From the NCBI GenBank assembly GCA_034359265.1, contig CP136890.1:100837501-100901500 (forward strand): a stretch of DNA of 64,000 bases, read 5' to 3'. The translations under genes were made by a program, and so were the position numbers. Below, one piece after another: positions 23,181 through 61,053 of the stretch (positions within the stretch are counted from its first letter, which is position 1; each line of letters starts with the position of its first letter). The notes beneath the pieces were generated by a model. It was not told the DNA's origin. It saw only the letters and a program-made list of their open reading frames with translations, and ran no database searches. This DNA comes from Canna indica. Lineage: Eukaryota; Streptophyta; Magnoliopsida; Zingiberales; Cannaceae.

Positions 23181-23650
23181 TCATTCCCACTGTATTGCGC
23201 CCTCAACTGGTGTAGTATAATCTGTAATTAAGACAGCAAAAAATAATACTTATAATCAGTACACATTTTACAATCAACTTATATTATATATTAACAAAAA
23301 AAAACATAAATAACTTTCTTACTGAATCTATAGCACGTCGGAGGAATCTCGCATGCATGGGTGCAATACTTGCAAACATCGATCACCTTCTTCATGCTCA
23401 CAAGACGCTCGGCATCCTGGGGCATGTCCAAGCAGATGCACATGAAGCCCGCTTCCTTCACCTCATCACAGCAATCTTGGGAAGGAACATCATTCTCAGC
23501 TCCAATCCCCACCACATCCTCGCAAGCGTAGTAGAGCTTTTTGTATGCCACTTGACATGAGGATGCTCCATCCTCTGCGTGACAGGCTACACTACTCGTG
23601 ATCAGGATCAAGAACATGAAGCCCAACACCGAAATGACTCTTGCCATCAC
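23181..23650 (-). CDS. LTP-like secreted cysteine-rich protein, cluster copy A, 122 aa
   Basis: Exon 1 is 23323-23650 and exon 2 is 23181-23221; the junction falls inside a codon (phase 1) and the total is 369 bases, in frame. A hydrophobic signal peptide of about 25 residues (ending CHAEDG) precedes a domain with the C-C-CC-CxC-C-C spacing of the plant lipid-transfer/2S-albumin superfamily (SCQVAYKKLYYAC, QDCC, FMCICLDMPQ, VIDVCKYC, IPPTC). Ten cysteines are present, two more than the canonical eight. Members of this fold are secreted and usually bind lipids; the ligand here is unknown. Exon 2 encodes NYTTPVEGAIQWE and lines up with exon 2 of copy C, but the donor GT seen there is GG here, so the frame reads on to a stop. 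A TATA box lies 39 bases upstream of the ATG. Confidence 0.85.
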
Positions 23651-28032: not shown

Positions 28033-28491
28033 TTATATTGTTAATTACATTTAACTTCAATAGCCCAAGATATCTTACTATTGCCCTGACTATTAGTTCA
28101 ACTCATCTGGGGCATCATCAATATTTACTATATTGCTAGGATCGAACATTAATAGTCTTGCATAAGAAAATATAGAAAGCATACACTAATTATTTATATG
28201 TTATAAAGAGATAGTGAGTTATGTTAGTATAATTTGTCTTAATTATTTTAATTCATGATCTAAAATATTATTCATCGTCGAAGATTCACTACTAAATCAT
28301 GAAACAACTTACAACTAGATGAGTGACATAACTTTATTATTATATTTTATTTTTTCTAAAATTATTTTGCATAATTAATTGAAGTACACAACCTTAAAAG
28401 CAAGGTGATATAAACATCTCTCTCCATGCATGAACCTTCATCCACAAATTCCTGCACCCTCAACTAATTAATTATTGTAGCTATGAGCAAG

Positions 28492-29330
28492 CTAGGGTGG
28501 GGGATTCAAGCCACCTATTGGGTTGGTATTGGGTCCAAGCTCCTCGTAGTCATCCATGAGAGAGGGTTGGGGATTCAAGCCACCTATAGGGTTGGTGTTG
28601 GATCCAAGCTCCTTGTAGTCTTCTATGAGCGAGGGTGAGGGATTCAAACCACCTCTAGGGTTGGTGTTTGGTCCAGGCTCCTTGTAGTCGTCCATGAGCG
28701 AGGGTGAGGGATTCAAGCCACCTCTAGGGTTAGTGTTGGGTCTAGACTCTTTGTAGTCGTCCATGAGCGAGGGTGGGGGATTCAAGCCATCTCTAGGGTT
28801 GGTGTTGGGTCCAAGCTCCTTGTAGTCGTCCTTGAGTGAGGGTGGGGGATTCAAACCACCTCTCGGGTTAGTGTTGGGTCCCGGCTCCTTGTAGTCATCC
28901 ATGAGTGAGGGTGGGGGATTCAAGCCACCTCTAGGGTTGGTGTTGGATCCAAGCTCCTTGTAGTCGTCCATGAGTGAGGGTGGGGGATTCAAGCCACCTC
29001 TCGGGTTAGTGTTGGGTTCCGGCTCCTTGTAGAGCGAGGGTGGAGGATTCAAGCCACCTCTAGGGTTGGTGTTGGGTCCCGACTCTTTGTAGTCGTCCAT
29101 GAGCGAGGGTGGAGGATTTAAGCCACCTCTAGGGTTGGTGTTGGGTCCAGGCTCCTTGTAGTCGTCCATGAGCGAGGGTGAATGATTCAAATCACCTCTA
29201 GGGTTGGTGTTGGGTCCAGGCTTCTTATAGTCGTCCATGAGCGCGGGTGGGGGATTCAAGCCACCTCTCGAATTAGTGTTGGGTCCTGGCCCATCGTAGT
29301 AGTCCGTGAGCGAGGGTTGGGAATTCAAGC
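28492..29330 (-). repeat. 69-bp coding minisatellite (12 peptide units)
   Basis: Twelve head-to-tail units of 69 bases (one of 60) with substitutions that mostly preserve D-Y, P-N-T-N-P and L-N-P. All indels are multiples of three and there is no internal stop, unlike the single unit in copy C. The frame is therefore either under constraint or recently expanded from an open unit. Confidence 0.95.
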
Positions 29331-29715
29331 CTATCCATGCATTGGGTTAATATATGTACTACAAAATATAATTAATTCAAATATATAATTGCTTACTGAA
29401 TCTGTCGCAGGTTGCAGGAATCTCAGTTTCTTTGGTGCATACCTTGCAAACATCGATGAATTTCTTAATGCTTACGATACGATCAACATCCTGGGGCATG
29501 TTCGAATAGATGCACGCGAAGCCTGCTTTGTTCACCTCAACACAACAATCCGAGGAAGGAGGCACATCCTGACCTGCAATCTTGATGGAGTCTTGGCAGA
29601 GGCTGAAGAGCATTTTGTAGTTCACCTCACATGATTCTCCAACCTTGGCATGATATGCTACAACCAAGGTAAGGGCGAAGAACATAAAACACAACACCGA
29701 CACATCTCTCGCCAT
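28492..29715 (-). CDS. LTP-like domain fused to a 12-unit tandem peptide, cluster copy B, 385 aa
   Basis: Exon 1 (29397-29715) encodes a signal peptide and an LTP-like domain close to copy C (SCEVNYKMLFSLC, SDCC, AGFACIYSNMPQ, VCKVC). In the CxC motif the second Cys is Tyr (CIY). The donor GTAAGC at 29396 can join the acceptor ATAG before 29330, removing 66 bases and restoring frame: 319 + 839 = 1158 bases, 386 codons with stop. Exon 2 encodes twelve 23-residue units, consensus LNPPPSLMDDYKE then PGPNTNPRGG, ending GGLNPPP. Eleven of the twelve keep the Asp-Tyr pair; unit 5 has lost three residues including DD. The acceptor has a weak pyrimidine tract, and the alternative acceptor TTTTGTAG at about 29360 would frameshift and stop early. 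Function unknown; a repeated secreted-peptide precursor is proposed. Confidence 0.7.
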
Positions 29716-29763
29716 CTCTCAACACTTAGTATGATTTGAGAAGTGCATGCACAGTAGAGTTAC

Positions 29764-29770
29764 ATATATA
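29764..29770 (-). promoter_or_regulatory. TATA box of gene B
   Basis: TATATAT on the minus strand, about 50 bases upstream of the ATG at 29715, beside a CTCTCTC tract. The same block is found near 41175 for gene C. Confidence 0.5.
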
Positions 29771-30330
29771 GAGAGAGATGAATGTATTATTGGAAAGTTG
29801 TCAAGTGACATGTTGTCCTAAATATTCTTCTGCAGTGCATTAATTAAGACGTGATTTATATATATATAATATGTAATCATTCTATAAATAACAATAAAGG
29901 AATACCAATGACAATTGGCGCCCACAGAAAAAAAAACAATTATTAACTGCTTTCAAAATAAATATATGATTATACAGTAACAATTAATATTCTTGCAGAA
30001 TAATTTAATAATATAGTATTTCATAAATTTATAAATTATCAAATGCTATTTATTACTTACCAGCATAAAAATAATATACTATATATATTTTGGTATTTTT
30101 GGTACAGACTTTATATATTTGCCAATTTAACATATAGGGGAGCTAAAATCGTTGCTAAATTAACTATTAGAGCATATTTATTTTGGTCCATAATTTTTTT
30201 TTCCGCTCATATGAATTTTTAATTATATTCACTTCTCTGCCCCACTATATCGTTAAAAATTATCTACATGACTAATATTTTTGATGATGTAGCCAAATTT
30301 TTTAAAACAACGTGGCTTAAATATAAATTA

Positions 30331-30895: not shown

Positions 30896-31114
30896 AGGTT
30901 TGTGCATTGGTACCGGATATTGATCGATATTAGGTTTGAAAATGTGGGTCCACTCGAGTAATTGCCAAGTTCTGTGGATCGATATTGATTGCAAGTTTGG
31001 TGGACTATATGAGAAAATTCGTGTCCGAGTTTAATTAATAAAAATATATCTGCGGATTCTGCTTCAACTGGTGTTAATTCGAAAGTTTCAAATGATTTAC
31101 CATCGGCTTCCCCT

Positions 31115-32002
31115 ATGGATGTTATGGATTCTGATACTTCGAATTCAGTTGATTCTTCGAATGCTCTTGTTCATCCTGTATCGGACTCTCTGTCGGAACC
31201 AAACTGTGATCCGTGGATCCAAGTACAACGCCGACAAAATCATCGACGAAACCCTAGAAGCGCAAATCCTAACTCAAAAATGAGGGAGGATCGTGCTCGG
31301 GTTCGGGATGCCTCAAATGATCCATGTGATCACAGTAGGGTGAGGAATGAGATAGCCAACCATGGTGATAAAGTGCTTGCGGCTCGTAAATCTTCCTTGA
31401 GCCCTGCCTCTGCTAGGTGCGCCTCTTCGATCAGAAATGTAATTGGTGGCTCTTCTGATGTTAGAAGTAACAGATCTGGTAAAACTGCTCCTCGAGGTAA
31501 ATCCTCTCCCTTTACTGCTGCTCCAAATTTTGGTGCGGCATCCCCTAATTTGAGTAAGCATGTTCTTAATAATGATGCTTCTATTAATAACAATGTTGTT
31601 AAAGCTTCTAAGTTAGTTTCTTTTTTTGAGACTCCTCATTTCGAGATTATGTCAAATATTTCTAAGGAGAATAATGTAGAGATTGGAGTTGAATCCATGG
31701 CTATGGATTCTTCTTCTCATTCCCCATCTAGGAATATTAAGGAATTAGATTCTGAACTTGCCATTATTTTTAATGCAAATCATGTGATTTCCGATGCTAA
31801 TACTAGTTCAAAATCCTCTTGTAAGAAAACCCCCAAGCATGTGAAGAAGGCTACTTTTAACACCTTTCTTCCGGGAGGCCATAGTAAATCTAAAAGGCCT
31901 AGATCTACTTCGGAGGAAATTTCTATCTCTATTGAAAATTCTCAGCTTCTCATGATATGTGATTACCCTGCTCAGTCCAATATTAATGACGAACATACTT
32001 AA
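31115..32002 (+). pseudogene. LINE ORF1 C-terminal part
   Basis: An open frame of 295 codons rich in Ser, Asn, Lys and Arg. The PWIQVQRRQNHRRNP segment resembles the basic region that follows the zinc knuckle in plant L1 ORF1 proteins (from memory). No knuckle or RNA-binding domain is present, so the protein is 5'-truncated. It overlaps the ORF2 start by a few bases. Confidence 0.6.
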
Positions 32003-35000
32003 TTGGAATGTGCGAGGAGCATGGAGACGTCCGGTTAGGGACTTTATTCATGACTTAATTAAAAATTCTAATGTTAAACTTATTGCTCTTCAAGAGATTC
32101 ACTTATCTGAAATCCGTTCTAAAAATTTAATTAGATCTTTTGGTAGAGATTGGATTGGTTTTATTCATCCTAACAAGGGGGGCTCTGGTGGCATTCTTAT
32201 AGTTTGAAACTCTAATTTTGTCAAATCGCAATTTATTTCTAGCTCGTCTCAAATTATAAATGTTGTAATTCAAATTGATAATTTAGAGCCTTTCTTATTT
32301 TCTAATGTTTATGTGAGCACAAATTAATGTGTGCATGCTAATCTATGGTCTTCCTTTTCTAATATTTCTTTGGATTCTTATCCTTGGCTAATTACTGGAG
32401 ATTTTAATTGTATTTTGGATCAATATGATAATTGTGGAGGCTCTCCTTTTCATGTTAATAAACATGTCTCTGATTTTCGTGCTTTTATTCATCATTGTGG
32501 TTTGATGGACTTAGGTTTTGATGAAAATCGTTATACTTGGTCAAATAATAGGTCTGATTTAGCTAAAATTTTGATTAGGTTAGATAGAGCTTTTGCAAAT
32601 GCTTCGTGAATTCATTTTTTTTTGGCAATTCATCGGTTAAGTATCTTATTAGATTAATTTCTGACCATAGACCTTTACTGATTATGTTACCTAAGGCTAA
32701 TTCGCATAAAAATAGATTATTTAAGTTTCAAAACTTTTGGTTGGAGTATGAGGAATGTGAAAATGTCATAAATAATGCATGGAACATCCCCAATTCTTGT
32801 ATAGCTAATTCTATGTTCTCTCATAAACTAAGAGCAACTAGAGGTGCCCTATCTCATTGGAAAAAAAATGGTCTTGGTGTTATTGAAAAATTGCTTGATG
32901 ACACTAAAATGGATATTGAATTTTTGAAATCCCTTGAAAGCTTGCCAAATGCTCCCCCTAATATTGATACTCATATCCTTATATAATAAATCCATTGTTC
33001 TTCAAAGACAAATCACTTTAAAATGGTGGTCCAAGTCTAAAACAAAATGGATTAATGAAGGGGATCAAAATTATGCTTTTTACCATAGGATTGTTACCTT
33101 AAGGAGAAGGAAAAACTTCATTACTTCAATTACTGATAGCAATAACTCTATTACTGATGACAAGCTCATTCTCCATCAATTTGTGGATCATTATAAATCT
33201 CTTTGGAATTTTATTCCTGATCCAAATTTTCATATGTTGCATTGGCCTGCTTTTAACTCTATAAGTTCTACTGATAGTAATCATCTTATAGCTCCTTTTA
33301 CTATGCTTGAAGTTTGGAATATCATTAAATTTTTAGGGAATGACAAAAGCCTTGGTTTTGATGATTTTACTGCAGAATTTTATAAACACTATTGACATAT
33401 TATTTCTACCTCTTATATGGACAACATCAATCTTTTTTATAATTCTGCTATTTTACCCAAAGATTGGAATCAAACCATGTTATCTTTTATTCCAAAATGC
33501 AAATCTTCTACTCATGTTAGAGAATTTCGCCCCATTGCTTTATGTAATCTAAACTATAGAATTCTTTCTAAAATTTTGGCTAATAGACTTGAGGTGCTTC
33601 TACCTAATTTGCTTCTGGCTAAAATCTTGCTAAATCTGAGATTTTTTTTTCCCAAAGTCGTTCTTATTTATAATAGGAATCATATTTGTCATAAACTAGG
33701 AATGAAGTCTGAGAATTTTCCTTTTAAATATATAGGTACCATGATTTCTTCTAGAAGACTCACTTCTAATGCTCATGATTATATTATCTCTCAGTTTGAG
33801 TCCAAGTTAAGTAATTGGAAATCTTCTCTTCTTTCTCAAGCAGGTAAGCTTGTTTTAATCAAGTCTGTTCTAAATTCTATTCCTACTCATACCATATCTA
33901 TAACCTGGCTAAATAATTGTATTATTGATAAACTAGAGAAAATCATTAGAAATTTTCTTTGGGATAGTAAGGATGATAAGCATAGTATTCATTTAGTTAG
34001 TTGGGATATTATCACCCTTCCTAAAAATTCTGAAGGCCTAGGTATCCAAAATATCAAAGCCAAAAGTATTGCTTTACATGTTAGAAGAATTCAAACTTAT
34101 CTAAATAACAATGATTCCATTTGGGTAAAATTAGTTAAAAATAAATACCTTTCCCTCTTTTTTATTAACCAAACTCCTCCTAAACACTCTTCTTGGTGTT
34201 GGAAGCTTTTCTTAGAGGCTTTTTCTAACCTTAAATCTGGTTTCACTAGCATTATAGGAAATGGTAGTAACACTTCTATCCTTGATGATTCTTGGGTCTT
34301 TGATATTCCATTGACTCTAAAACCTTCTATGATAAACTCTAATTTAATTCAAAATGTAAATAAAGTGCATGACTTTATGTATAATCATTCTTGGTCTACT
34401 TTTTTTGGACTAACCTATTGCAGTAGGGACTTATGGAGGGTCATTGAGCAGATTGAGTTGCCAAAGACCCCCTGTGATGATTACTTTGTTTGGAAATCTG
34501 ATTTGAAAGGTGAGATTTCTTCATCTTTAGCTTACCTTTTTTTGAAAATCTGGATGAACATCTTGTTGGTATTTTTTCCCATTGGGCTGAAATTTGGAAG
34601 CTTACCACTTCCCTCAAGGTAAAGTTATTTATGTGAAAATTTCTTCATAACAGACTTTTAACTAGACTCCGGCTTTTTCGATTGGGTATTTCAAACTCAA
34701 AAGACTGTGTTTGTTGTGGTTTGGAAAATGAATCTATTCAACATTTGTTTTTTGAATGTTCTTTTGCTTCCGATATTTGGTCGGCCATTGGTCATAAGCT
34801 CAATGTGGATTTTACCAATAGGACTATATGATATTTTGGTAGTTGGCTTCTGTCGAGTCCTGGTTTAGTTTTAAATCAGGAAACCAGAGCCATTCTTGCT
34901 AATACTATCTGGTTTATCTGGTTTTTTAGAAATGGTTTGTTTCATGCTGAACAGAAGCCCACTATCTTCAATTCTATGATGCGTATTTTTGCCTACTCTA

Positions 35001-35554
35001 CTCATTTCCATAAATAAAGCGTATCTGAGGGGAATAGAAGTATTATCCAGAATTCTATCAATTGGCATCGTCCTCCCCAAGATTGAATTAAAATAAACTA
35101 TGATAGATCTTTTTTAAACAGTGAAGGTGGAGCTGCATTTGTGATAAGGAATCATCTAGGGAAGTGTTCCTTTGCTGCACCATTTTACTTTAAATCTGAT
35201 TCTGCTTTCTTTTGTGAAATTATAGCTGCTTATCATGCTCTGTTTCATACAGTTTCAAATCAGTTGGACTTTATTATTTTGGAGAGTGGTTGTAAAATTT
35301 TGGTAGATCTTATGAATGCAAAAGCTCAAGCCCATTGGAGATGTAAAAATTTATATCTAAATGTGTTAGAGTTAATTAGTAAATGTACTAATATCATTTG
35401 TAATTTTGTTCCTAGATCTGCAAACAAAGCTGCCCATTGGGCAGCAAATGCAGCTCGGCTAAATAAAGATTCCATTATGTGGAATCCTATTCGGCCTCCA
35501 GAGCTTGATAACATTTTGTATAATGATTTAGTTTCTTCTGGCCTAATGGCCTAA
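31970..35554 (+). pseudogene. LINE ORF2 remnant (endonuclease, partial RT, RNase H)
   Basis: Starts ILNWNVRGAWRR, the N-terminal EEP endonuclease motif, followed by LIALQEIH, WLITGDFNCIL and ISDHRPLLI. Stops interrupt near 32205, 32325 and 32607. The RT begins (FRPIALCNLNYRILSKILANRL, about 33526-33600) and then jumps near 33610-33660 to a post-RT region (FPFKYIGTMISS, LSNWKSSLLSQAG), so the palm with the YxDD active site is deleted. A Cys-rich zinc-binding region (CVCCGLENESIQHLFFEC) and an RNase H domain (about 35100-35554) follow, with further stops. Confidence 0.85.
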
Positions 35555-36669: not shown

Positions 36670-37101
36670 TCCCACGGTATTGCGCCCTCAACTGGTGCAG
36701 TATATAATCTGTAATTAAGACACCAAAAAATAATACTTATAATCAGTACACATTTTACAATCAACTTATATTATATATTAACAAAAAATAACATAAATAA
36801 CTTTCTTACTGAATCTATAGCACGTAGGAGGAATCTCGTTTTCATGGGTGCAATACTTGCAAACATCGATCACCTTCTTTTTCATGCTCACAATTAGACG
36901 CTCGGCATCCTGGGGCATGTCCAAGCAGATGCACCATGAAGCCCGCTTCCTTCACCTCATCACAGCAATCTTGGGAAGGAACAACATCATTCTCACCTCA
37001 TCACTTGACACGATGATGCTCCACCCTAGCTCTGCATGACAGGCTACACTCATTATCAGGATCAAGAACATGAAGCGCAACAGCGATACGACTCCTGCCA
37101 T
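36670..37101 (-). pseudogene. Decayed duplicate of LTP-like gene A
   Basis: Aligns with copy A from the ATG (37101, MAGVVSLLRFMFLILIM then SVACHAE) to the exon 1 donor near 36810, and again at the second exon (about 36670-36708). About 60 bases coding the first Cys-containing helix are deleted. A one-base insertion disrupts the CxC region (TTCATGGTGC against TTCATGTGC in A), and exon 2 has a 2-base insertion. The TATAAAG promoter word survives near 37148. No functional protein is expected. Confidence 0.85.
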
Positions 37102-37974
37102 CGCGCACAGATCCTAATTATATATACTGCAATTTGGTTTCAGTTGAATGGCTTTATAAAGAGTAGTAGCTTCCATTTTTGCATCCGCGCAGATGAAAAC
37201 GATCGAGTCTAAGAATTCTATAGATATATGGATGAATTAAAACGACTAAACGAGGCAGTGGCCGCCCACACCTTTTGTACGTATGCTACTTTATTTAGTT
37301 TACATCCATATATATCGGTCATATAGGACTCTAAATAGTGGAGCCTAAAGTTACAAGTTACAACTCTTACAAAGAGGAATTGGATTTGAGAATAAGCTCC
37401 TGAGGTGTCATGCATGGAGCACAGGAACTGGCTTGCAGAATCTGGAGATATATCAACTCTTTGCAATCTCATTCTATGATGACATTTTTCAAGTGGTGTT
37501 GATGTATGTACTGCAAACCACATATAATTAACCGCAATGATTGTGTATTTTGAGAAACAAACACACCATTAATTAATCTGGGTGATTTTGATCCAATGAT
37601 CTTATATTGTTAATTACGTTTAACTTCAATATATATATAGCTCAAGATATCTTACTATATTGCCATGACTATTAGTTCAACTCATCTGCGACATAATCAA
37701 TATTTACCATTGCCAGTATCGAACATTAATAGCCTTGCTAATTATATATCTGTTATAGAGAGATAGTGAGTTGTGTTAATTAGTATAATTTGTCTTCATT
37801 ATTTGAATTCATGATCTAAAAATATTATTCATCATCGAAGGTTCAGTACTACTAAATCATGAAACAAATTCTAGATATGGTTGACATAACTTCATTATTA
37901 TATTTTTTTTCCGGAATTATATATTTTGCATAGTTAACTGAAGTACACGCCCTTAAAAACAACATGATATAATT

Positions 37975-38543
37975 TTTTGAAACGTGAAAACTGTATACCA
38001 TTCATGAGAAATGATAGGTTACAGCAATGGTTGAGGAAGGAGAATAAAAAACAAGGTTCGAAAATTAAACATAAAAAAAGACAGACAACCCCAACATAGG
38101 TTATCCCACACAACAACTGAAACAGAATCAGCTCCTAAGGAGAAGTACAGAATGAATAGAAGTTAGCCGCAGAGGCAACCAAAACAGGCAAAGAGGATCG
38201 CCGGTCCTGAAAAATGCGAGAGTTGCTCTCAAACCAGATGAACCAGCTCCATATCAGAATTAATCTCAAGCGGGCCAGCCAATAACTAGTAGATTCATTT
38301 GAAGATTGCGAAATGCAGAGCGAAGCGAAAGGCAGCTTGAGCATCGAGAGGAAGGAACGCCATCCGTCCGACACGAAAGGACAGGCAAGGAATAAGTGAT
38401 AGTGAGACTCCTTGCCCCCGGAACAAAATAGACAAGCATCCTCAGAGGCAACGCCCCAGCGCATGAGTCGATCTCGAGTAAGCAAGCGCTTTCGAAATCG
38501 AAGCCAACCGAAGATGGAGATCAGAATTAAAGTGCCTGAAAAA
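37975..38543 (-). mobile_element. 5'-truncated LINE fragment (zinc-binding region)
   Basis: AACAACATGATATAATT (17 bases) occurs at 37958-37974 and 38544-38560, and the minus-strand 3' end finishes in a short A run. The encoded fragment has KRLLTRDRLMRWG and a C-x2-C / H-x4-C pattern (ACLFCSGGKESHYHLFLAC) typical of the zinc-binding region after plant LINE reverse transcriptases. The same site near 28400 in unit 1 is empty. Confidence 0.85.
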
Positions 38544-38653
38544 AACAACATGATATAATTAATCAGCATCTCTCCGTATGCATGAACCTTCACCCATTAA
38601 TTATATATATATTGTACTAGATCGATGAGGGTGGTGGAGGATTCAAGCCACCT

Positions 38654-38944
38654 CTAGGGTTGGTGTTGGGTCCGGCCAGGCTCCTTGTAGTCGTCCATAG
38701 TCATCTCCACCATCCCCTTTCCTTCCTGAAACAAGCAATTTGAAGCACTCATTCGGCCACAAGTTGGGAAGAGTTAATTAGCCAGAAGACTCACCTCAAT
38801 TTCGGAAGTACTAGAATCTGCAAGGTCCCAACAATAAAACAATAATATATAATTAGTTTAATCTGCAAATTAAGGTGCCAACAATAAATTATAATAATAA
38901 CGAAAATAACTATCCACGCATTGGGTTAATTAATATCTGTACTG

Positions 38945-38983
<39 letters not shown>

Positions 38984-39300
38984 TGCTTACTGAATCTGTC
39001 GCAAGTTGCAGGAATCTCAGTTTCCTTGGCGCAGACCTTGCAAACATCGATGACTTTCTTAATGCTTACGATACGATCAACATCCTGGGGCATGTTCGAA
39101 CAGATGCACGCGAAGCCTGCTTTGTTCACCTCAGCACAGCAATCCGAGGAAGGAGGCTCATACTGACCTGCAATCTTGATGGAGTCTTGGCAGAGGCTGA
39201 AGAGCATTTTGTAGTCCACCTCGCATGATCCTCCAACCCTGGCATGATCTGCTACAACCAACGCCAGGGCAAAGAACGTAAAACGCACTTCTCTCGCCAT
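38654..39300 (-). CDS. LTP-like protein with a single frameshifted peptide unit, cluster copy C, 134 aa
   Basis: Three exons: 38991-39300, 38795-38817 (23 bases) and 38654-38725. They total 405 bases and close in frame with good GT-AG signals. The signal peptide (about 22 residues) leads into an LTP-like domain (SCEVDYKMLFSLC, SDCC, FACICSNMPQ, VCKVC) with an intact CxC. Exons 2 and 3 add NSSTSEIE and EGKGMVEMTM, then DDYKEPGRTQHQP. Compared with the units in copy B, four extra bases (CCGG at about 38673-38676) follow the DDYKEPG codons and shift the frame, ending the protein before the PNTNPRGG part. A Harbinger insertion separates the ATG from the old TATA region. Confidence 0.7.
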
Positions 39301-39313
39301 CTCTCGACACTTA

Positions 39314-41135
39314 GGGGGCGTTTGGTTGCCCGCAAGTAGAAATGCTGCAACTCTAGTTGCAGCATTTAGATAACAAATTTATTTGGTTGGCTGCAAAATC
39401 ATTTTGCAGCATTTACTATTTGCAACTTGTATTTCAAATATCATTTGCGGGCCGCAAGTGGAATTGCAGCCCAAAAAGCCCGCAATACAAAATTACGGGC
39501 TGCAAATGCAATAATTTAAGTATTGAAAAATAATTAATTTTGGCGACGTAGAGTCGTCGGATGAAGACGAGATAAATATCAAAGTTGTAGGTTTTTGCAT
39601 GCTGAACCTGATGGTAGTGTCAAATTTTACATCTGATGTCATTTGATAGATTTTTTAATATATTTTCAGTATTATACAAAAATTAAAAATTATTAATTTG
39701 TCAGACAAATCGTGTCGGGCCTAAGTTTTTAGCCTGGCCCGAAAAAATTTGTCCCAGGCTCGACCCAAAAAATTTATGCCCGACCCGGTCCAAAAAAGTT
39801 CGTGTCCAGCCTGGCCCGAAAAAATTTGTGCCCGGCCCGGCCCGAAAAAATTCGTGTCCGTCCCGCCCCGAAAAAATTTGTGTCTGACCCGACCCAAAAA
39901 ATTCGTGCACTACACGGCTCGTCCCAGCCCGGCTCGGTCCGAAAAAATTCGTGCCCAACCCGGCCTGAAAAATTTCGTGCCCAGCCCGACTCAAAAATTT
40001 CGTGCCTGGCCTAGCCCGAAAAAATTTGTGCTCGGCCAGGCCCGAAAAAATTCATGCTCAGCCTGGCTCGAAAAAATTCACTGTCGGCCCGGCCCGAAAA
40101 AATTCATGCTCGACCCAAAAAAATTCGTGCCCAACCCAGCCCTGCCCGAAAAAATTTATGCACTGCCCGACTCGTGCCGACCCGAAAAAATTCGTGCCTT
40201 GCCCGACCCAAAATTATTCGTGCACGGCCCAACCCCAAAAAATTCGTGCCCAACCCGGCCCAAAATATTTTGTGCTCGGCCCGCCCCAAAAAAATTCGTG
40301 CCCGGTCTGGACCGAAAAAATTCTTGCCTGGCCCTGCCCGAAAAAATTTGTGGTCAGCCCTGCCCAAAAAAATTCGTGTCCCGACCCGACCCGAAAAATT
40401 TGATGCCCAGTCCGAAATATTCGCATCGGGCCCAACCTTGCCCGAAAAAATTCGTGCACTGCCCATCTTGACTCGGCTCGGCCCAAAAAATTTATGCCCG
40501 ACCCCGCATGAGAAAATTCGTTCCCGGCCAAAAAAATTTCGTGCTCGGCCCGGCTCGAAAAAATTCCTGCCCGACCCGGCCTGAAAAAATTCGTTTCCCG
40601 GCCCAGCTCAAAAAAATTCATCCCCGGCCCGGCCTGACCAGAAAAAAAATTCGTGCCCAGCCCGAAAAAAAAATTGTGTTCGGCCCAGCCTTGCCCGAAA
40701 AAATTCGTGCACTGCCCAACCTGTCCTGGTCTGGCTCGGGCCGACTCGAAAAAATTCGTGTCCGGCCCGGCCCAAAAAGATTTGTGCATGACCCGACCCA
40801 AAAAGTTTGTGCCCGGCCCTGCCCGAAAAAGTTTGTACCCGGCCTGAATAAATTTGTGCATGCTCGGCCCGTCCCGTCCCGGCCCGACTCAGCCCGACTT
40901 GAGAAAATTCGTGCCCGACCCGACCCGAAAAATTTCGTAAGATGCAAGTTGCACGTTGCAAGTTGCAAGTGTAATTACAACTTCCATTTGCGGCCAACCA
41001 AATGCTTGCAAATAGAAGTTGCAACTCTACTTGCGGGCAACCAAACGGTAGGCTGCAAAATCTATTTGCGGGCATTTGCTTTTGCATGCAAATAGATTTT
41101 GCAGCATTTACACTTGCGGGTAACCAAACGCCCCC
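39314..41135. mobile_element. PIF/Harbinger-type element inserted 13 bases before the gene C ATG
   Basis: TTA target duplications lie at 39311-39313 and 41136-41138. Terminal inverted repeats read GGGGGCGTTTGGTTGCCCGC and, from the other end, GGGGGCGTTTGGTTACCCGC. Removing it joins ACACTTAG to TGTGGTTTGAG, matching the gene B leader. The left interior (about 39540-39690) is similar to the Harbinger element at 42879. There is no transposase; the interior is mostly a degenerate tandem array. Confidence 0.9.
39710..40945. repeat. Degenerate GCCCGGCCCGAAAAAATTCG tandem array
   Basis: Several dozen imperfect units of about 22-27 bases alternate a GC block (GCCCGGCCCG) with an A6-TTCGTG block. Copies diverge by substitution and by unit-length changes. 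Long open frames occur on both strands only because the unit is stop-poor. Confidence 0.95.
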
Positions 41136-43540: not shown

Positions 43541-44025
43541 TTAGTATTAGTTTATCATGTATTTATTAAGTAAATTATTTAATCTGCTATAATTTGTTTG
43601 TTTTATTGGATATAAAAGAATATAATAGAATAATAAATGAGAGAAATGATATTAGATAAAAAATTTAAATTTGATGTTCACCTAATATAATATTAATTTT
43701 ATAATTTATAATTTTATAATTTATAATATATAATTCTATATATTTAAGAATAATAAATTGAAAACTAATAAATTAAAAAAATCTTTTATCCATGAAGCAA
43801 AAAAATCCACAGCATCCTGATCGTCGACGGGTTGGGCTGTGGCGAGACAATAAAAAACAATTTACCCCACCTTGGTGCTATCCGACGTGTCACTATCCGA
43901 TTGGCTGCAATTAGCTAGAAGCAGCAGCCTCACGGGAAAGGGAGCGAAGCCACGAACAAATAAATCAAACCAAAGAGATAAGAGACAAGGAAGCAATTCT
44001 ATCGAGCACTTGCAGAGCTCACAAA
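43541..44025. other. CHLD upstream region and leader
   Basis: The first part is AT-rich. From about 43810 the sequence becomes mixed and should hold the promoter and 5' leader of CHLD. No clear TATA box was identified. Confidence 0.4.
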
Positions 44026-47000
44026 ATGGCTGCTGTCGCTGCCACGGCCGCAGCCGCCTCCTCTTTCCTTCCGTCGAAGTCCATTATCTCCCCCTCATCC
44101 TTTCGGCCTTTCCTCCGACGCACGGAGAGACCCATTTGCCCTCGCAATTCCGCTGCCGGCCGCCCGTCGCCGCGTCGCTCCATCGTCGCTTCGGCCGCCG
44201 CGACAATCGACTCCGCCAACGGATCTGTCTCCAAAAACGTACACAATCCTGTTGACAACGCGGACTTTGGCAGGCAGTACTTCCCTTTGGCTGGTGTGGT
44301 TGGACAGGTAAGCATCTCAGCATCAAAATCCTGCTCTGTTCTTCCTTTTCTCCTTCAGTCATTTGGTACGTTTAATTCTTCGATTATGTTGGCCACATAT
44401 AATTAAGTTTGATGTCTGGTTGAAGAGGTAATTGGAATGAATTGGTTTTCTCAATGCCTGCATCTTTGTAGGACATCAATCACTGGCCTTAAAGTCCCTT
44501 TGCTTTCTTGTTTCATGCTTGTGAGTTGTGACATGCAGAAGTTACTGGATCAATCTAAATGATCTTAACGACAGATCTTTGAGGATAGTAATATACAAGA
44601 CTATGCTTTTTTAAAAAAGCAAGACTATGGAAGTTTGTAATTTGTTAGCAAAAACATGATTTTTGCATTCTCCTGGTAATGTATCTACCATAATATTCAA
44701 TCTTTTACTAAATTCTGAAGAAATTTTTAGCATCATTTTCTGTGCCTTATTTAGTGATACTTTCATTCCTAGAGATGATAGGTTGGTACTTGGTATCACT
44801 CCATCTTTCTACCATGACATTCTAGTATGTACAGTACAATTTTGTGTTCTGGTAGACATGAATCTTGGAAGCTAATATATAAACCATTTAAAAGATAAGA
44901 TATCAAATGCTTGTGAACCTTTAAAAAGTCAGAGAGAGAACAAGAAAGACACTTTATTGATCAACCTAAAAATTGCAAACCAGCAAAGTATTGTTGATTG
45001 ATATACATAAAAATAATAATGATACCTGAAAATGGAAGAGGGATGGTATGGTATGGAAGGTCCATATACAATGTGAGATGGTGTGGATTTACTCAGTCTA
45101 GAGGGACGGTATGGTATGGAACGTCCATATACAATGTGAGATGGTGTGGATTTACTCATTCTAGAGAGATGATATCATAGGGAAGGTCCACATATTATGA
45201 TCGGGACAAATGTGTGGATGGAGAAGGTGGTAGAAAGATTGGGGAAGTATATGTTGTTCAGTACTTCAGTCTTCAGTTAGTATTCCAATTTCAAGTACAC
45301 ATAAATTTATAATTGCATGTTGTGAGGATAATATCTCTGAAAATTGACTTATATATAGTAGATATTGCATATTTGTTTGAAAAAAATTACTGTTGATGGG
45401 TCTCATATCAACATAACTTCGATAGTAGAGGCCTAGAACATCTGATTCGAGCACCTTGGCTATTGATGTCTTTACACTACACAGTTTTTTGATAGATAGC
45501 TGCTGATGTCTTTATTTTGGTGCAATCAAGTAATCCATCAATAATATCTTAATAACTAAAGAAAGTACTGTCACGACCTCCTCTAATGGGCTACATGGCC
45601 TATAAATGTCATAGGCCTTAAGCTCGAAATGCTTAAGCCTTAAGCTGAAGTTAATGGTAGTATATTAATTAAGCTTTATTAATAAACACAATTCATAATT
45701 AAATCCCAATGTGAGACTAAATCAGAGTGTTACAATCTCTTCCACTTAAGTCTTAATGTCTCGTCATGACCCAATCCAAGTCAATGCATATCCCACAACT
45801 ACACCTTACTTAATGGCATGTGAAGCCTAACCTAGTAGTACTTTCATTCCATCTATGAGCAACGCTTTCTTATATTAGCTCCCTCATTAAGCCTAGAAGT
45901 AGACTCGTTTGTTACCACTTGTCATGATCTTGTCTGATGGGCTAACTGGCCCACAAACCTCATAAGCCTGAACCACTTGAACCAAAATGCTTAAGTAGAA
46001 GTTAGCAGTAGTATAACTATCAAGCCTTATCAACCAAGTGCTAATGTTAGACTAAATCGAAGTGTTGCAATTCAATGAGATCTTATTAACTAAAGAAAGT
46101 ACAACTACCTTTTGATAGTCTGTTTGTAACTTTGCAAAACTTCCTTTTGCATTACTGCTCGAAGGTAAATCATTCAAACAAGAAGAGGGCATAAAAGTTA
46201 CATGGTCTAATCACTAGTTATCCATCTTCAAGCAAACTTTGGTACCTTCTTGCATTCAAAACATATATTTGACATCACAAAAGAACCTTCATCTCCTGAA
46301 TGTTACTTTGGAAGAAACAATTTGGGCTTTAACTTATCGCTTAGATGCCTCTCTCTATAGTGGAAAATGTGCTAACGAAGAATAGAGGGGGCTTTTTTTT
46401 TTGGGTTTTTCTTCAATTTTTATGAACTATAATTATCCTTTTCGAAATTCCTGCAGTAAAACAGCGTTTAGACCTGATCTTCTACTGATGCTGTTCATTA
46501 TTTCAAAGTTTCTCAACAAAGGAACAGAATGTGATAGAACATGGATGTACTAATATTATAGCTAGAGAGTGTAGACTAAAATATATTCTGACAAGATGTT
46601 TAACTTTTATAATATCTTTCATATGACTATTGACTAGTGTTCACAATGGTTCTTTAACCTTTTTTCCTTTCAATGCAAAGGATGCTATAAAAACAGCCCT
46701 ACTTCTTGGGGCTATCGATCGTGAGATAGGAGGTATTGCCATCTCAGGAAAGCGTGGAACAGCAAAGACAGTGATGGCACGTGGATTACATGCTATGCTT
46801 CCACCCATTGAAGTAGTGGCAGGTTCAATATGTAATGCAGACCCCAACTGTCCAGAACAGTAAGCTTTTTTATGTTTTGGTTTACTTGAATTACTTTATT
46901 GATCTAGATAAACTGTATTGCGTTGTACTATGTGAACTCCTGAGAGTGCATAGTGGAAACTACAGAGTGGTCAGGCGCTCTAGCACACATAAATTAATTA

Positions 47001-50000
47001 AATGTACCTAAACTGTAATTCCATAATTTCAGTTAAAAATTTTAAAGCATTACATTCTATTTTCCATGTTCTAACAATTTAATTTTCAAGAATGTCTGAG
47101 CATTCTATTGTTTTTTTTTTCTGAATTAAGTAGGTGTTAAGACTTAAGAGGCATTATCTCTGATCCAGGATTGGATTTCTTAAAAAAGATTGTTCTATCT
47201 CTTATAATATACTTCAGTGTCAACTTTAGTTAACTGATAAATATACCTAGAACATGTAACATCTAAATTTGCATATGGCTCTGAAAAATGTTTACTAGCT
47301 CTTACAGGTGCTTTGTTTCAATACTGCATCATAGTAGTCAAGTGCCATTATTTAAAATATTTCCTGCGAAATGGAAGAGGTTAATGCTGACTCAGCAATA
47401 AAAATGTCCAAGAAAACTTTATTCATTATTTTGCAATGCTTAGATTTCTTACTGGTTGCAGTATCAATTGAATGTGATTAATTTATCCATTCCTTGTAAT
47501 GGAATTTTCTTTTCTGTAACATATGACATTCTAAATTATCTTTTAGGGTTCAATGTGGTATTGTGGTTATCAGTTGCTAACAGATATATAGGTACTGTTT
47601 AGATGGGAAGATGGTTTAGCTGAACGAGTTGAATATGACTTTGCTGGAAATATTAAGACTCAAATTGTTAAGACACCTTTTGTGCAGGTAAAATACTCAA
47701 TGGCCTTGATACCTATAATATATTCATGAAATGTTCATGTGCATAACACCATTTACTAATAAAATTTCAGATTCCACTTGGAGTTACTGAAGATAGGCTT
47801 ATAGGATCTGTTGATGTTGAGGAATCTATAAAATCCGGAACTACAGTATTTCAGCCAGGTCTACTTGCAGAAGCACACAGAGGTGTCCTCTATGTTGACG
47901 AAATAAACCTTTTGGATGAAGGTATTAGTAATCTGCTTTTGAATGTTCTTACCGATGGAGTTAATATTGTGGAGAGAGAAGGAATAAGCTTTCAACATCC
48001 TTGCAAGCCACTTCTTATTGCTACCTACAATCCAGAGGAAGGTTCCGTACGGGAACACTTACTTGATCGCATAGCGATTAATCTAAGGTATGGCCAGTCA
48101 GCATCTACTCTACCTTTCATGCCCAACTAAGCTTCTCATTTGGGATCCACATATGAAAAAACTGCAGCCCAAATAGGACCTAAACCTAGACATAAAAAGA
48201 ATCATGTTATAGATGGACAAAGTTTACTCCTTTAGTAAAAAAAACCTAAGAAAACTAGAATTGTTATAAAATTTGAGAATAATAACTGAGTGCTATTGTT
48301 TTTGAGGTAAACAAATAGAAACTAGATGTCTGATCATTGCCATAGTTCACTCTTGTACACAATATTTCACCAATAATCAATTGAATCATGACATCATGAT
48401 TTCAAGGGCTTCTGTTGTTGATAGATAATTCGTCGACAATCAATTTAAATTTCGAAGAATGATGGTCATAGATTAACTGGGCTTTCAAATATTTACTATT
48501 GAGATAGGAAGAAAAATAGTGGTTTGAGCTTGATGCTAATGATTCCAAATTTCATCACAAGATTCTTCGAGGACAACCTTATTTTCAAATTACCATTTCA
48601 TTTACAAAAGAAAAGTCGGTTATATGTATTACAATAGAGCAATTTCTCACAAAAAAGAATAAAATTTATCATGAGTTTATGTTTCTTCTAAGTTCATATT
48701 TTAACGGGTGGAAGAAACTTCACAATCAATCAGTCTTGATAGAATGTCAAAATTGAAATGAAATAAGATTGTAGTTGTCTTCAGCTCTGCCCAAAACCAA
48801 ACCCCTAGCGATATAGCAGCAATTGATGTCTGTCTTTTGATCTTCAAAACATAAAAAACTTATATCTTTTTGAGCTTGGAGTATAACTGGAATGTGATCT
48901 TCCTGTCATAAATATGCTTTCAGGAATAAATCTACTTCATCTTACATGACGCATGATTGTTAACAATTCACTTGCTTGATCTCAATATCAGCTAAATAAT
49001 TATACTACATGTAGATAGGATGTAATAACTAATTTATTTATTCTTTTTCTCATTTGTATTTTACTAGCTTTTGGGACTGGGTTTAAGCTTTTAAATATTG
49101 GGTTCTGTACAGATACCAAAAGCCTATAAGCAAATAAAATAAAATAAAATCTTGGGTGATATGTCAATATGATCAATACACTGGTACATTAGTATGGTTT
49201 ATCCGAAAAAGATATAGTGAAGATTTGGACCTTTAAATGATTTGACTCAGTTTATCTGGAAGTTATAATCAAGCTTGAAGATGTCTCTAACAGTACTTGG
49301 TAGAATTGTCATTCTATCTAAGATTTTACAATTTAGGGGTATAGTTATTTGTTTCTTCTACAACTATAAGTTTTTGTCTTTGCTTTTTCAGTGCAGATAT
49401 TCCCATGAACCTTGATGACCGAGTTGCTGCAGTTGGTATCGCAACAAAGTTTCAGGAAACAAGCAAGGATGTTTTCAAAATAGTGGAGGAAGAAACTGAA
49501 TATGCAAGGACTCAGGTAACTCTGAATATCTTTTATGTAATTGTGATTCTGGATACTGGCGAGACTAGAAGTGGCAGTGAACATATAGCTGTGCTAGTGA
49601 AAAGCTTTTTTTGTTATATTTTTTATATCCTTAGTACAATTCAAATATCTAAGTATCTAGTATCTACTGCTTTATGGCTTGCATTTGTACCATTGATAAA
49701 ATTTCTTCTTCTTTTTATTTAAATGTAAGTGAACTTATTTGTTATAAGTATATATCAGCTGGATCATCATGACTATTCTGAATTCTCTATTCTTACAGTA
49801 TATCTTTCTAACATTTTCAAGTTAAAATTTTACAAATGATACTTGATATCAAACTGACAATGTTGTTTGCTTATTTAACATTTGTTAAAGTCCCACGTTA
49901 CTTAAGGATATGGTCAAGATAGCCTTCAAAATAGTTTGGGCAGTCCTCTCCCCTTGAGCTAGCTTTGGGGGTGGAGTTAGGCCCACTAATTTGTTAACAA

Positions 50001-58242: not shown

Positions 58243-61001
58243 TTACGCAATGAGAAACGGCAACACGGTTAACATGAAAGACTCGTAGGTGAAAGTCGCT
58301 GACCCTGAATACATGGTGTCTTTTTCCTTGAACTTCTCTGTCAGCCCCTGTAATACAGCAGTTGTTGATTCATGTAAATGAACAAGAGGAACATTGAAAA
58401 AATATACAAAAGAATCTAGCAAATATATATACCTTGACTGTGAGACAGCACCTGAATTAGAAAGCAAGACAAAAGATAGAAAAGTTAGTTGCGGATCTAT
58501 AGGCAAGCTAGTCAGTTCAGAAGAATTAATCTTAAATGTATCTCTTACTCGATGAAGTTATCATATTCAATGGCTTTGCTTTTGCCTCCGGATTTGTCAA
58601 ACTTGGTCACAAGCAAATCTAGAACTGTTGGGGAAACAGAAAAACCAAGGCTTAGAAGAGCCTCGCGAAGTTCTGCAGTGTCAATTCTACCACTTCTATC
58701 ACGATCAAACCTCTCAAAGATGTCCTGGAAAAGAAATAATCAATATATGTTCTACTACAACCAAGTAGCAGATAATGTACAATATGGACAACAGAGTGTT
58801 TTCATACCCTCCAGCTCTGAAGGCTGTAGAAGACAGACGTGAACTCTTTTGGTCCTATAAAAAATGCAAGGCACCAGAAAATAAGGTTTGATGTATTGTT
58901 ATGGGAATAGAAAAAAGTGATAATAATCAATAATTGATAACCATCTCAAAATATATGAAATTGAGAAAAAGCAAATTTGGAATTTGCAGTTGGAGATAAC
59001 TGCGAAAGTATGGAGTCTTTTTAGGCTTAAGACCAACTATACATATAAGACAAGATGGTCTCCTGAGAAAGTAATGCAATCAAACTAATATCCACTGATC
59101 CACAGGACTCCCATCTACAGAAAAAGTGAAATGTGCATAAAACAATAACAACTTAACAAGATGAATGTTGTCAGAAAAGATGAACTGTAATATTTCATCA
59201 ACCAGTCAACATAAAAAAGATGAAAAACATTTGCAATTATGCCCAATTCAGTGCAACAAAGAATTAGATTTTCCACAAATATGCTTAAATGGAGAAAAGA
59301 ATAATTAGAATGAGATAATTATGGTGTTCGAGTTCAGAAAACGCCATGCTTTCTTTAGAATGCCATAAGCACAATTTTTTAAGCACATGGAACAAGGTTA
59401 AGTATAAACCAAGTAGTTTGAAGGAAGCATATAAACATTATCAATTGTTATCATTTTTCTGCAAGTGGTCATTAATAGGTGAATTGATTGTTAAACTTCA
59501 TTCTTACACCTTTGATATGCTGCATGAGTTTTATTAGATACTGTTCAATAATACAATAGTTCCTAGGTACAATGTGGTTGGATATAATCAGACCCTTCAA
59601 ACCTGGAAGATGGATAACTAAAGAGAAAAGCTCAAGAATAGTAACCCAAATATTTTTCTTGGAAATAAATTGGTATTTACTTCTATAAGCATGCATATAG
59701 ATAATCCTTCTTGTTCTAGAAAATGCCTACTCAGGCGGTATGCTTTTGCAACATTCTAGGAGATTGATGCATGGAAACAATATCAAATTCCATAAGTTCC
59801 TGCCTGAGGTCCCCATCAATTACAGCCAAGCAATATCTGAAAGTCTCCACACAATTCTTTCGAAGTTATTAGAAGAATTTAAAGTGGTTTCACCTTCTCG
59901 AATCAAAATCTTCAAAGTTACTAGCAAAAAGATGAGAGCATGCAAGCAAAACACCTACGAGCTCATCAAGGCAATTAGCCCTCCCAAGTCCCGTTAAAAA
60001 TTATGCTACACTAACCAATGAGTGATGCCCTTACTATCAAAGTCCTAAGATTACTCATGGATCTTAGCCAATTGAATCCAAAGTTTGCGCACAGTAGCAC
60101 TCAGCGAACTACCCATGCTACCACGCACCGTTTAGGGCTTGAATCATGTCGATAAGGGGAATATAAAATTGCAACAGATTTGATAGAAGAAAACATTAAG
60201 AATTAAAAAAAGAAATGTTCCAAGAAGGATGGGAAAAAGTATCCCATTAATCCCTCTTCAATTGAATACAAGGTGCTTTAATTTCAAGATAAAAGAAGGA
60301 TAGGAAGAAGGGGAGAAGTGGAGGAGCTGACCAATTTTGCGGACATTTGAGGAGGTGAAGAGGTACATGAGGAGATGGACGGTCCTCAAGCTAAAGCTTT
60401 GGTTGTATGACGACAACGCCTGCTGCAGCTCCTTGTCGTCGATGAACCCGCTACCATCGTGATCCGCGGCCTTGAAGCATGCTACCACGTTCGGATCCGT
60501 TCCTGGTGGGAATACCGACGGCACCAACAACCCAAACGGGTTGCCGCCGCCGCTGCTGCTGCTGTACGCTCCCATAGGAGGCGGGGCCGACGCGGCCGGA
60601 GGAGGGGGTTGACCGTAGTACCCTGGTTGCCCGTAACCTCCATAACCATGAGGCTTCCCTTCCTTGGGAGGCTTATCGCCCGCTGGCACCTGATCATAGT
60701 ACCCAGGCTGCCCGTAGCCTGCGTAAGCCTGAGGCTTCCCGTCCTTGGGAGGCATCTCGCCCGCCGGAGGCTGGCCATAGTACGCGGGCTGGCCGTAGCC
60801 TCCATAGGCCTGAGGTTTCCCTTCCTTGGGGGGCTTCTCGCCCGAGGGCGGCGCCGAGGGAGTTGGGGCGCCGTAGGGCGGCGCGGAGGCGTAGGGCGAC
60901 GGCGGGGATCCGTAAGGCGGGTAAGCACCGTAGGGTTGGCTGCCGGGGGCCGGGGGAGCGCCGTAGGGAGAGTAGCCGGAGCCGGGAGGATAGCCTGCCA
61001 T
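58243..61001 (-). CDS. Penta-EF-hand calcium-binding protein (CML48/49/50-like), 338 aa, complete
   Basis: Five exons: 60332-61001, 58808-58854, 58549-58724, 58433-58451 and 58243-58347. They total 1017 bases in frame, and the 19-base fourth exon is confirmed by phase. The N-terminal 150 residues are rich in Gly, Pro and Tyr, with three tandem repeats of about 27 residues (EKPPKEGKPQAYGGYGQP type). Then follow a canonical EF hand DHDGSGFIDDKE, a second helix pair ending FYSLQSWR, another canonical loop DRDRSGRIDTAE, a degenerate hand (DKSGGKSKAIEYDNFIE) and a C-terminal segment YESFMLTVLPFLIA used for dimerisation in the PEF family. Such proteins are Ca sensors in cytosol or nucleus; partners are unknown here. 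A TATA box lies at 61054-61059. Confidence 0.95.
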
Positions 61002-61053
61002 CTGGATGTCGATCGATGCAAGGAGAAAAAGTCATTCGGTGAAATTGAATCGG

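Follow-up and report, generated by a model that had tools for sequence, protein, structure and literature searches.

Does the minus-strand gene at 29715-28492 of Canna indica, in which an nsLTP-like exon is followed by an exon of twelve tandem units, encode a secreted precursor of many small peptides, or is the repeat an untranslated remnant beside a decaying gene? We addressed this question in the window, that is, the whole stretch of 64,000 nucleotides that was analysed.

Gene layout and tandem paralogs

The initial annotation had joined the phase-1 donor of exon 1 in frame to an exon of twelve 23-residue units, and both the splice signals and the open frame agree with such a join. The array gene would then consist of exons of 319 and 839 nt, encoding 385 residues once joined in frame. 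Its features are as follows.

29715-29397, minus strand: exon 1; ATG at 29715, 106 codons plus one base, with the signal peptide and the cysteine-rich nsLTP domain
29647-29715, minus strand: probable signal peptide MARDVSVLCFMFFALTLVVAYHA, by inspection (N-region basic, core hydrophobic, cleavage point preceded by a small residue)
29506-29508, minus strand: codon 70, with Tyr at the second Cys of CXC (Cys6), which paralogs 39 and 23 retain; the change is polarised as C>Y
29396-29331, minus strand: putative GT-AG phase-1 intron of 66 nt, GTAAGC...GGATAG
29330-28492, minus strand: exon 2, the repeat exon, ending LNPPP-stop with TAG at 28494-28492; open for 279 codons including the stop
28510-29328, minus strand: array of 12 units with consensus LNPPPSLMDDYKEPGPNTNPRGG, from repeat and frame analysis
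29052-28993, minus strand: unit 5, lacking Met-Asp-Asp through an in-frame deletion of 9 bp; the sole indel among the 12 units

The donor is in phase 1 (CA/GTAAGC at 29397/29396) and the candidate acceptor lies at 29331/29330. The donor position is common to paralog 23, whose database protein P0003 (Cni_G04238) is spliced at the homologous donor. When 14 AG dinucleotides in the 300 nt past the donor were tested as acceptors, five kept the array open (29331, 29286, 29265, 29196 and 29127) and nine closed it. The acceptor at 29359 has a better pyrimidine tract than GGATAG, but it does not leave the array open and yields 134 residues, as expected from the earlier remark that an upstream acceptor causes a frameshift. 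The GGATAG acceptor has no pyrimidine tract and the intron is short, as judged by eye, which was counted against the explanation preferred below. The database protein that matches exon 1 (P0001, 112 aa) continues unspliced into the intron and reaches a stop there, without the array. The 2022 Canna genome paper mentions, in its available text, the use of Maker with RNA-seq evidence (PMC9371203), and this may not be the annotation from which P0001-P0003 derive. Directly before the ATG, at 29743-29771, there is a TATATATG stretch together with GTGCATGCAC. We take the latter to be an RY-type CATGCA element.

The LTP exon occurs in four tandem copies, all on the minus strand, which start at 39300, 37101, 29715 and 23647. 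The features of the three paralogs are listed below.

38991-39300, minus strand: exon 1 of paralog 39; 8-cysteine motif complete, with an additional Cys; 86% protein identity to array-gene exon 1
38795-38817, minus strand: probable small exon 2 of paralog 39, NSSTSEIE, assigned by eye; absent from the array gene and skipped by the P0002 model
38654-38725, minus strand: single-unit exon of paralog 39, EGKGMVEMTMDDYKEPG..., with a 4-base insertion inside the unit that breaks the frame; P0002 (Cni_G04240) ends here
36811-37101, minus strand: paralog 37, a disrupted copy of the LTP exon, from sequence comparison
23323-23647, minus strand: exon 1 of paralog 23 (nsLTP), covered by P0003
23181-23221, minus strand: exon 2 of paralog 23, a short ordinary tail NYTTPVEGAIQWE without the peptide unit, identical to the P0003 C-terminus

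Two of the four copies are damaged, paralog 37 in its exon and paralog 39 in its unit. The intron of paralog 23 lies 38 bp before the stop codon, and in most nsLTP genes of types I, III, V and VI the only intron lies, according to the accessible part of PMC2277411, 2 to 73 bp ahead of the stop. P0002 (111 aa) joins the LTP exon of paralog 39 to the unit exon, so that the unit is C-terminal and the protein ends in ...KEGKGMVEMTMDDYKEPGRTQHQP; the model uses an earlier donor, by which the last cysteines are dropped.

The array-gene intron sequence that matches paralog 39 ends at GGATAG and then runs directly into the array, so the acceptor probably arose where some 210 bp of paralog 39 are missing. 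Past its unit, paralog 39 has what looks like the degraded beginning of another unit (shuffle P 0.001, in a post hoc alignment), and the units of the array diverge more from one another (mean dS 0.357) than the LTP exons of the array gene and paralog 39 do (dS 0.150). These two observations suggest that the array is older than the duplication that separated both genes and that it became smaller in paralog 39. Alternatively, the repeats may mutate faster.

The surroundings of the cluster hold several other elements. A 1.8-kb element at 39314-41135, 13 bp upstream of the paralog 39 ATG, has terminal inverted repeats (GGGGGCGTTTGGTT...) and a TTA target duplication, and is presumably PIF/Harbinger-like by these features. 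It contains a long 26-bp GC-rich minisatellite (GGCCCGAAAAAATTCGTGCCCG...) at 39736-40844, and the array-gene upstream sequence (30134-29725) aligns with 41535-41135, on the far side of the element. The 3' flank of paralog 39 carries an insertion at 37973-38566 that is absent from the array-gene flank and presumably contains a LINE-like 3' coding remnant. Beside the array gene, plus-strand ORF fragments at 31013-35554 are, we assume, a broken LINE with reverse transcriptase and RNase H-like pieces. Farther away are plus-strand exons at 43915-49722, which we take to resemble an Mg-chelatase CHLI gene, and a minus-strand glycine/proline-rich protein with an 81-bp repeat (60258-61031), presumably followed by an apparent EF-hand.

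The LTP head and the repeat array

The LTP-type secreted scaffold that had been proposed from the letters alone is supported by a Pfam match to LTP_2 (PF14368; 25.9 bits against a curated cutoff of 22, residues 17-103) and by the cysteine pattern, with the signal peptide recognised by inspection. The eight-cysteine motif C-Xn-C-Xn-CC-Xn-CXC-Xn-C-Xn-C is incomplete in the array gene and complete in paralogs 39 and 23. Since nsLTPs missing a single Cys, one of them Cys6, are described in the portion of PMC2277411 at hand, the loss of Cys6 weakens an assignment to type VI but does not exclude it. The spacing in paralog 39 is C-10-C-16-CC-9-C-1-C-19-C-2-C-9-C; with Cys7 taken as the second of the two late cysteines, the spacing values available from that paper exclude types I, II, III, V, VII, VIII and IX, and leave IV or VI. 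The same excerpt describes for rice and wheat type VI nsLTPs an extra Cys between Cys6 and Cys7, which is also found here. It also gives two residue rules for type VI. The Val four positions before Cys7 is present in the array gene and in paralogs 39 and 23 (by eye), and the Met ten positions before it occurs in paralog 23 only, with Ile in the array gene and paralog 39. From these spacings, the extra Cys and the Val -4/Met -10 pattern, the LTP head looks like a type VI-like nsLTP that lost Cys6, the numeric spacing of type VI not being among the values compared.

The structure model of the head is of low confidence (mean pLDDT 66.4), and Foldseek and VIA-align gave no meaningful match. A profile compared with PDB sequences had one match listed, DIR1, at E 0.095, and exon 1 alone had none at E up to 10. 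When exon 1 was polarised with paralog 23, the array gene presented five nonsynonymous and two synonymous changes since its split from paralog 39, so the LTP head is without visible constraint in this branch. Paralog 39 presented eight and one, respectively, three of the eight being in one codon beside an alignment gap. Eight further differences between the two could not be polarised, and the overall dN/dS was 0.43.

In the second exon, Tandem Repeats Finder reported 12.3 copies of 69 bp at 28490-29331, with a score of 1166. The unit measures 69 bp in 11 of the 12 copies and 60 bp in unit 5. Residues L1, N2, P5, L7, Y11, N17, T18 and N19 are unchanged in all twelve. The count of eleven units with the Asp-Tyr pair given in the initial annotation was reproduced, although in unit 1 the pair is shifted one residue earlier (TDYYDG). 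An Asp directly precedes DY in nine of these 11 copies, and RxxL was found ten times. Against Pfam, the best match of the repeat was a sub-threshold coiled-coil match at E 0.38.

The pattern of changes among units bears on whether this exon was translated. The array has zero frame-breaking indels and a single indel, of 9 bp, per 39 to 64 substitutions, depending on the counting, while the noncoding flanks common to the array gene and paralog 39 have 17 indels per 64 substitutions, 14 of which are not multiples of three. At the flank rate 8.5-14 frame-breaking indels would be expected in the array, and the probability of none is 2e-4 to 8e-7, with the provisos that AT-rich flanks inflate the expectation and that gene conversion could purge indels. 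Over the 66 pairs of units, mean dN is 0.105 and mean dS 0.357, a ratio of means of 0.29; against the consensus, dN/dS amounts to 0.34-0.44 when all differences are counted and to 0.46-0.59 when only distinct ones are. The dN/dS across units, which had been proposed as a check, is thus 0.29, with moderate constraint, and Y and NTN are kept in 12/12.

The 39 distinct changes from consensus include 16 synonymous ones, where 9.8 to 11.5 are expected (P 0.010-0.042 under four mutation models; P 0.015 to 0.075 by a simpler binomial). On a neighbour-joining tree of the units, 22/51 changes are synonymous (P 0.004-0.03) and 26/51 fall at third positions (P 0.007). A similar synonymous excess appears in the antisense frame with the common wobble position (P 0.02-0.066), and none in the other two frames of the same strand. 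Moderate evidence of this kind indicates that through much of its existence the array was coding and under purifying selection.

The absence of stop codons was also considered as coding evidence. Of the six frames, only that of the array is free of stop-related changes among the 39 distinct ones, and this proved uninformative (P 0.27-0.46 and 0.08-0.49). The open frame is partly expected because the repeat period is a multiple of 3.

Resemblance of the unit to sulfated peptide hormones

The unit was compared with nine Arabidopsis and seven soybean PSY peptides, 12 of the RGF/GLV group and six of the CIF group, taken from the tables available in PMC11534595 and PMC9369194. From the Arabidopsis table, seven PSK entries and GLV9, which starts with EY, were left out. 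The soybean rows for CEP and CLE were also dropped, together with PSY/CIF duplicates of the same or shorter sequence. Four queries (the consensus and units 1, 4 and 12) were shuffled 3000 times with DY kept fixed.

The consensus start DYKEPGPN is identical to Arabidopsis PSY7 (DYPEPGPN) at 7/8 positions. The start of unit 4, DYKESGPN, is likewise identical at 7/8 to soybean PSY-XSP4 (DYKESGAN), which is its best match. Identities to any PSY as high as these at positions 3-8 were reached in 0.07% of the 3000 shuffles (P 0.0007) for both the consensus and unit 4, the choice of positions having been made after the PSY match was seen. The mean score over the 16 PSY peptides gave P 0.009 for the consensus and 0.017 for unit 4, and the best score to any of them gave 0.065 and 0.032. 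Unit 12 is weaker (best-score P 0.12, identity P 0.028, mean reached in 6.5% of shuffles), and unit 1 did not match PSY (0.58, 0.95 and 5.7%, respectively). In an ungapped test against 26 Arabidopsis peptides, the best score had P 0.021 and the identities had P 0.0014.

The sulfated-hormone likeness, which had been claimed for both PSY and RGF/GLV, therefore holds for the first eight residues of PSY (P 0.0007 for identities at positions 3-8) and not for RGF/GLV. For the 12 RGF/GLV peptides listed, the best-score and mean P were 0.19 and 0.30 with the consensus, and 0.75 and 0.60 with unit 4. The CIF group showed no similarity beyond composition in the shuffle test, and the ungapped test agreed.

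The likeness to PSY is limited to one half of the motif, given as DYXXXX[AP]NXXHXP in the accessible parts of PMC11641228 (wheat) and PMC7913133. DYXXXX[AP]N is matched in 8/11 DY copies and N stands at position 8 in 10/11; the full motif is found in 0/11, and HxP is absent in 11/11. We call the unit PSY-like and not PSY because its second half fails the motif. The wheat criteria, as stated in the excerpt of PMC11641228, are 60-200 aa and the full motif, and a 385-aa protein with tandem copies lies outside this criterion of a short precursor with a C-terminal motif. Soybean PSY-XSP4 (DYKESGANPRNDQ...) is reported in the available part of PMC9369194 in forms with unmodified and with sulfated Tyr2, also without HxP.

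Protein searches with exon 1, the repeat ORF and an alignment gave matches on one Canna contig only. The repeat ORF had no match at E <= 0.1 among 7993 candidates scored by a method that needs shared five-residue words. As far as these searches reach, the gene appears so far to be specific to this lineage, seen only in Canna. In the open-licence PMC literature we found no work joining LTP, tandem repeat and peptide hormone; for three of the four topics LTP, tyrosine sulfation, tandem repeats and C-terminal extension, the one match was unrelated nematode work; and no multi-copy PSY appeared in the titles and abstract beginnings of the 10 matches listed out of 52,720.

Competing readings and comparison with known systems

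We tentatively favour, at a little under even chances, a multi-copy precursor of PSY-like peptides, specific to this lineage and built on an nsLTP scaffold. The unit of paralog 39, which lies downstream of its LTP exon and is joined to it in P0002, counts for this reading. Weighing against it are P0001 with no array, the missing HxP, the modest best-score P values and the poorer matches of units 1 and 12, the loss of Cys6 in a head of no visible constraint, the two damaged paralogs, the protein searches that gave no relative beyond Canna, and the synonymous excess in the antisense frame. The tiny second exon of a type VI-like nsLTP would have been replaced by the array of twelve PSY-like units. 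We infer the splicing, translation, sulfation, cleavage and receptor of the array product along the following lines. The signal peptide would lead the protein to the ER, with the LTP-like head acting as pro-domain or carrier. In the Golgi the tail would meet TPST, and the Tyr of each (D)DY would be sulfated; DY contexts are TPST substrates according to the consulted part of PMC11534595. Prolyl hydroxylases may modify tail prolines. Subtilases could release DY-initiated peptides, those of the aspartate-dependent type cutting at DD/DY sites, and, according to the available text of PMC7162652, SBT3.8 needs an Asp at the site where it cleaves to mature CLEL6. The RGGL between units could be cut by an S1P-type enzyme; this is a weak match to the CLEL6 S1P sites RRLR and RRAL in the same excerpt, because there is one Arg per unit. 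The released peptides may act via, or compete at, PSY-type receptors.

A stronger form of the precursor reading, in which an LTP gene turned into a polyprotein hormone precursor yields from one transcript an LTP head and up to eleven sulfated PSY-like DY peptides that differ slightly in sequence, as an HxP-less new class of ligands or as antagonists at PSY receptors, is doubtful in our view. If it were true, ligand copy number and the mix of variants would be set by the tandem array. To our knowledge, a sulfated peptide is present in its precursor once or in a few copies. Section 6 of PMC11534595, within the text available, mentions one precursor that contains PSK twice. With twelve PSY-like copies on an nsLTP, the gene would show that a multi-copy precursor can originate by exon replacement in a tandem cluster, and natural PSY-like variants without the HxP half would directly test which part of PSY the activity needs. 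Gene models can miss such genes, as here the database protein stops before the array.

The strongest rival, given how the database models the gene, its missing Cys6 and the damage to neighbouring copies, is that an untranslated minisatellite lies beside a decaying gene. Read-through or the upstream acceptor would give a protein of 112 or 134 aa, and the array would be a 3' UTR relic of a once-coding exon. P0001 does end in the intron, and exon 1, besides lacking Cys6, is without visible constraint in this branch. Paralog 37 is disrupted, and paralog 39 has a broken unit and, 13 bp ahead of its ATG, a transposon-like insertion of 1.8 kb. A 69-bp repeat also keeps a frame open cheaply, the lack of stops being uninformative. 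On the other hand, no frame-breaking indel and an excess of synonymous changes at a mean dS of 0.36 argue against long decay, although a recent death of the gene is still compatible with them; on balance we consider this reading unlikely. The same exon could instead be read as the structural, proline-rich and partly hydroxylated tail of a cell-wall nsLTP, left uncut and perhaps cross-linked through its tyrosines. Pro makes up 59/278 residues of the tail, with NPPPS motifs. Xylogen and LTPG-like chimeras are kin to this idea, here in reverse order. Chimeras of an 8-cysteine domain with a repetitive proline-rich region are known from the part of PMC2216038 available, which also states that in HyPRPs the repeat usually lies on the N-terminal side of the 8-cysteine domain, the opposite of the order found here. 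Moreover, Pro is retained at unit position 3 in only 10 of the 12 units, at position 4 in 7 and at position 14 in 6, against 12/12 for Y and NTN, and the similarity to PSY7 and PSY-XSP4 would be a coincidence, so that a wall protein seems improbable.

Another kind of processed peptide, RiPP-like, cyclic or buried in an 8-cysteine precursor, would not be a sulfated hormone at all, and we regard it as very improbable. PawS1/SFTI is a further example of peptides that come from such precursors. These systems typically carry core peptides in tandem on a secreted precursor, cyclic ones being suggested for tandem-repeat ST proteins in the accessible text of PMC11991032, and each unit has one conserved Tyr. 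Against it, the Pfam scan at E up to 1 gave no BURP or DUF2775 match, and the DY context is that of TPST substrates.

Among known systems, the RGF/GLV/CLEL peptides share with the unit the DY start and spaced prolines, but the unit does not have the HN or NN ending of the peptides listed in the available table of PMC11534595. HyPRPs, as described in the portion of PMC2216038 seen here, also unite an 8-cysteine domain with a repetitive proline-rich region; the order is reversed in the array gene, and its repeat holds DDY and NTN instead of a structural proline motif. Several peptide copies likewise occur in the two-domain CEP precursors GmXAP6 and GmCEP-XSP1 (PMC9369194, in part), which have two copies that are not of the DY type, and in a sweet potato precursor with six wound peptides, against twelve units here; unlike the array gene, neither is mentioned with an LTP head in the available text. 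Type VI nsLTPs, as far as their partial description goes, resemble the array gene in the apparent signal peptide, the LTP_2 domain and the intron just after Cys8, whereas the array gene lacks Cys6, has Ile for Met and has a second exon of 839 nt in place of a short tail. Finally, although the array differs from PSY in its twelve tandem copies without HxP, within a protein of 385 aa with an LTP domain, the unit is like the PSY peptides AtPSY7 (DYPEPGPNPIHDP) and GmPSY-XSP4 in its DY start, its acidic context and its secreted precursor.
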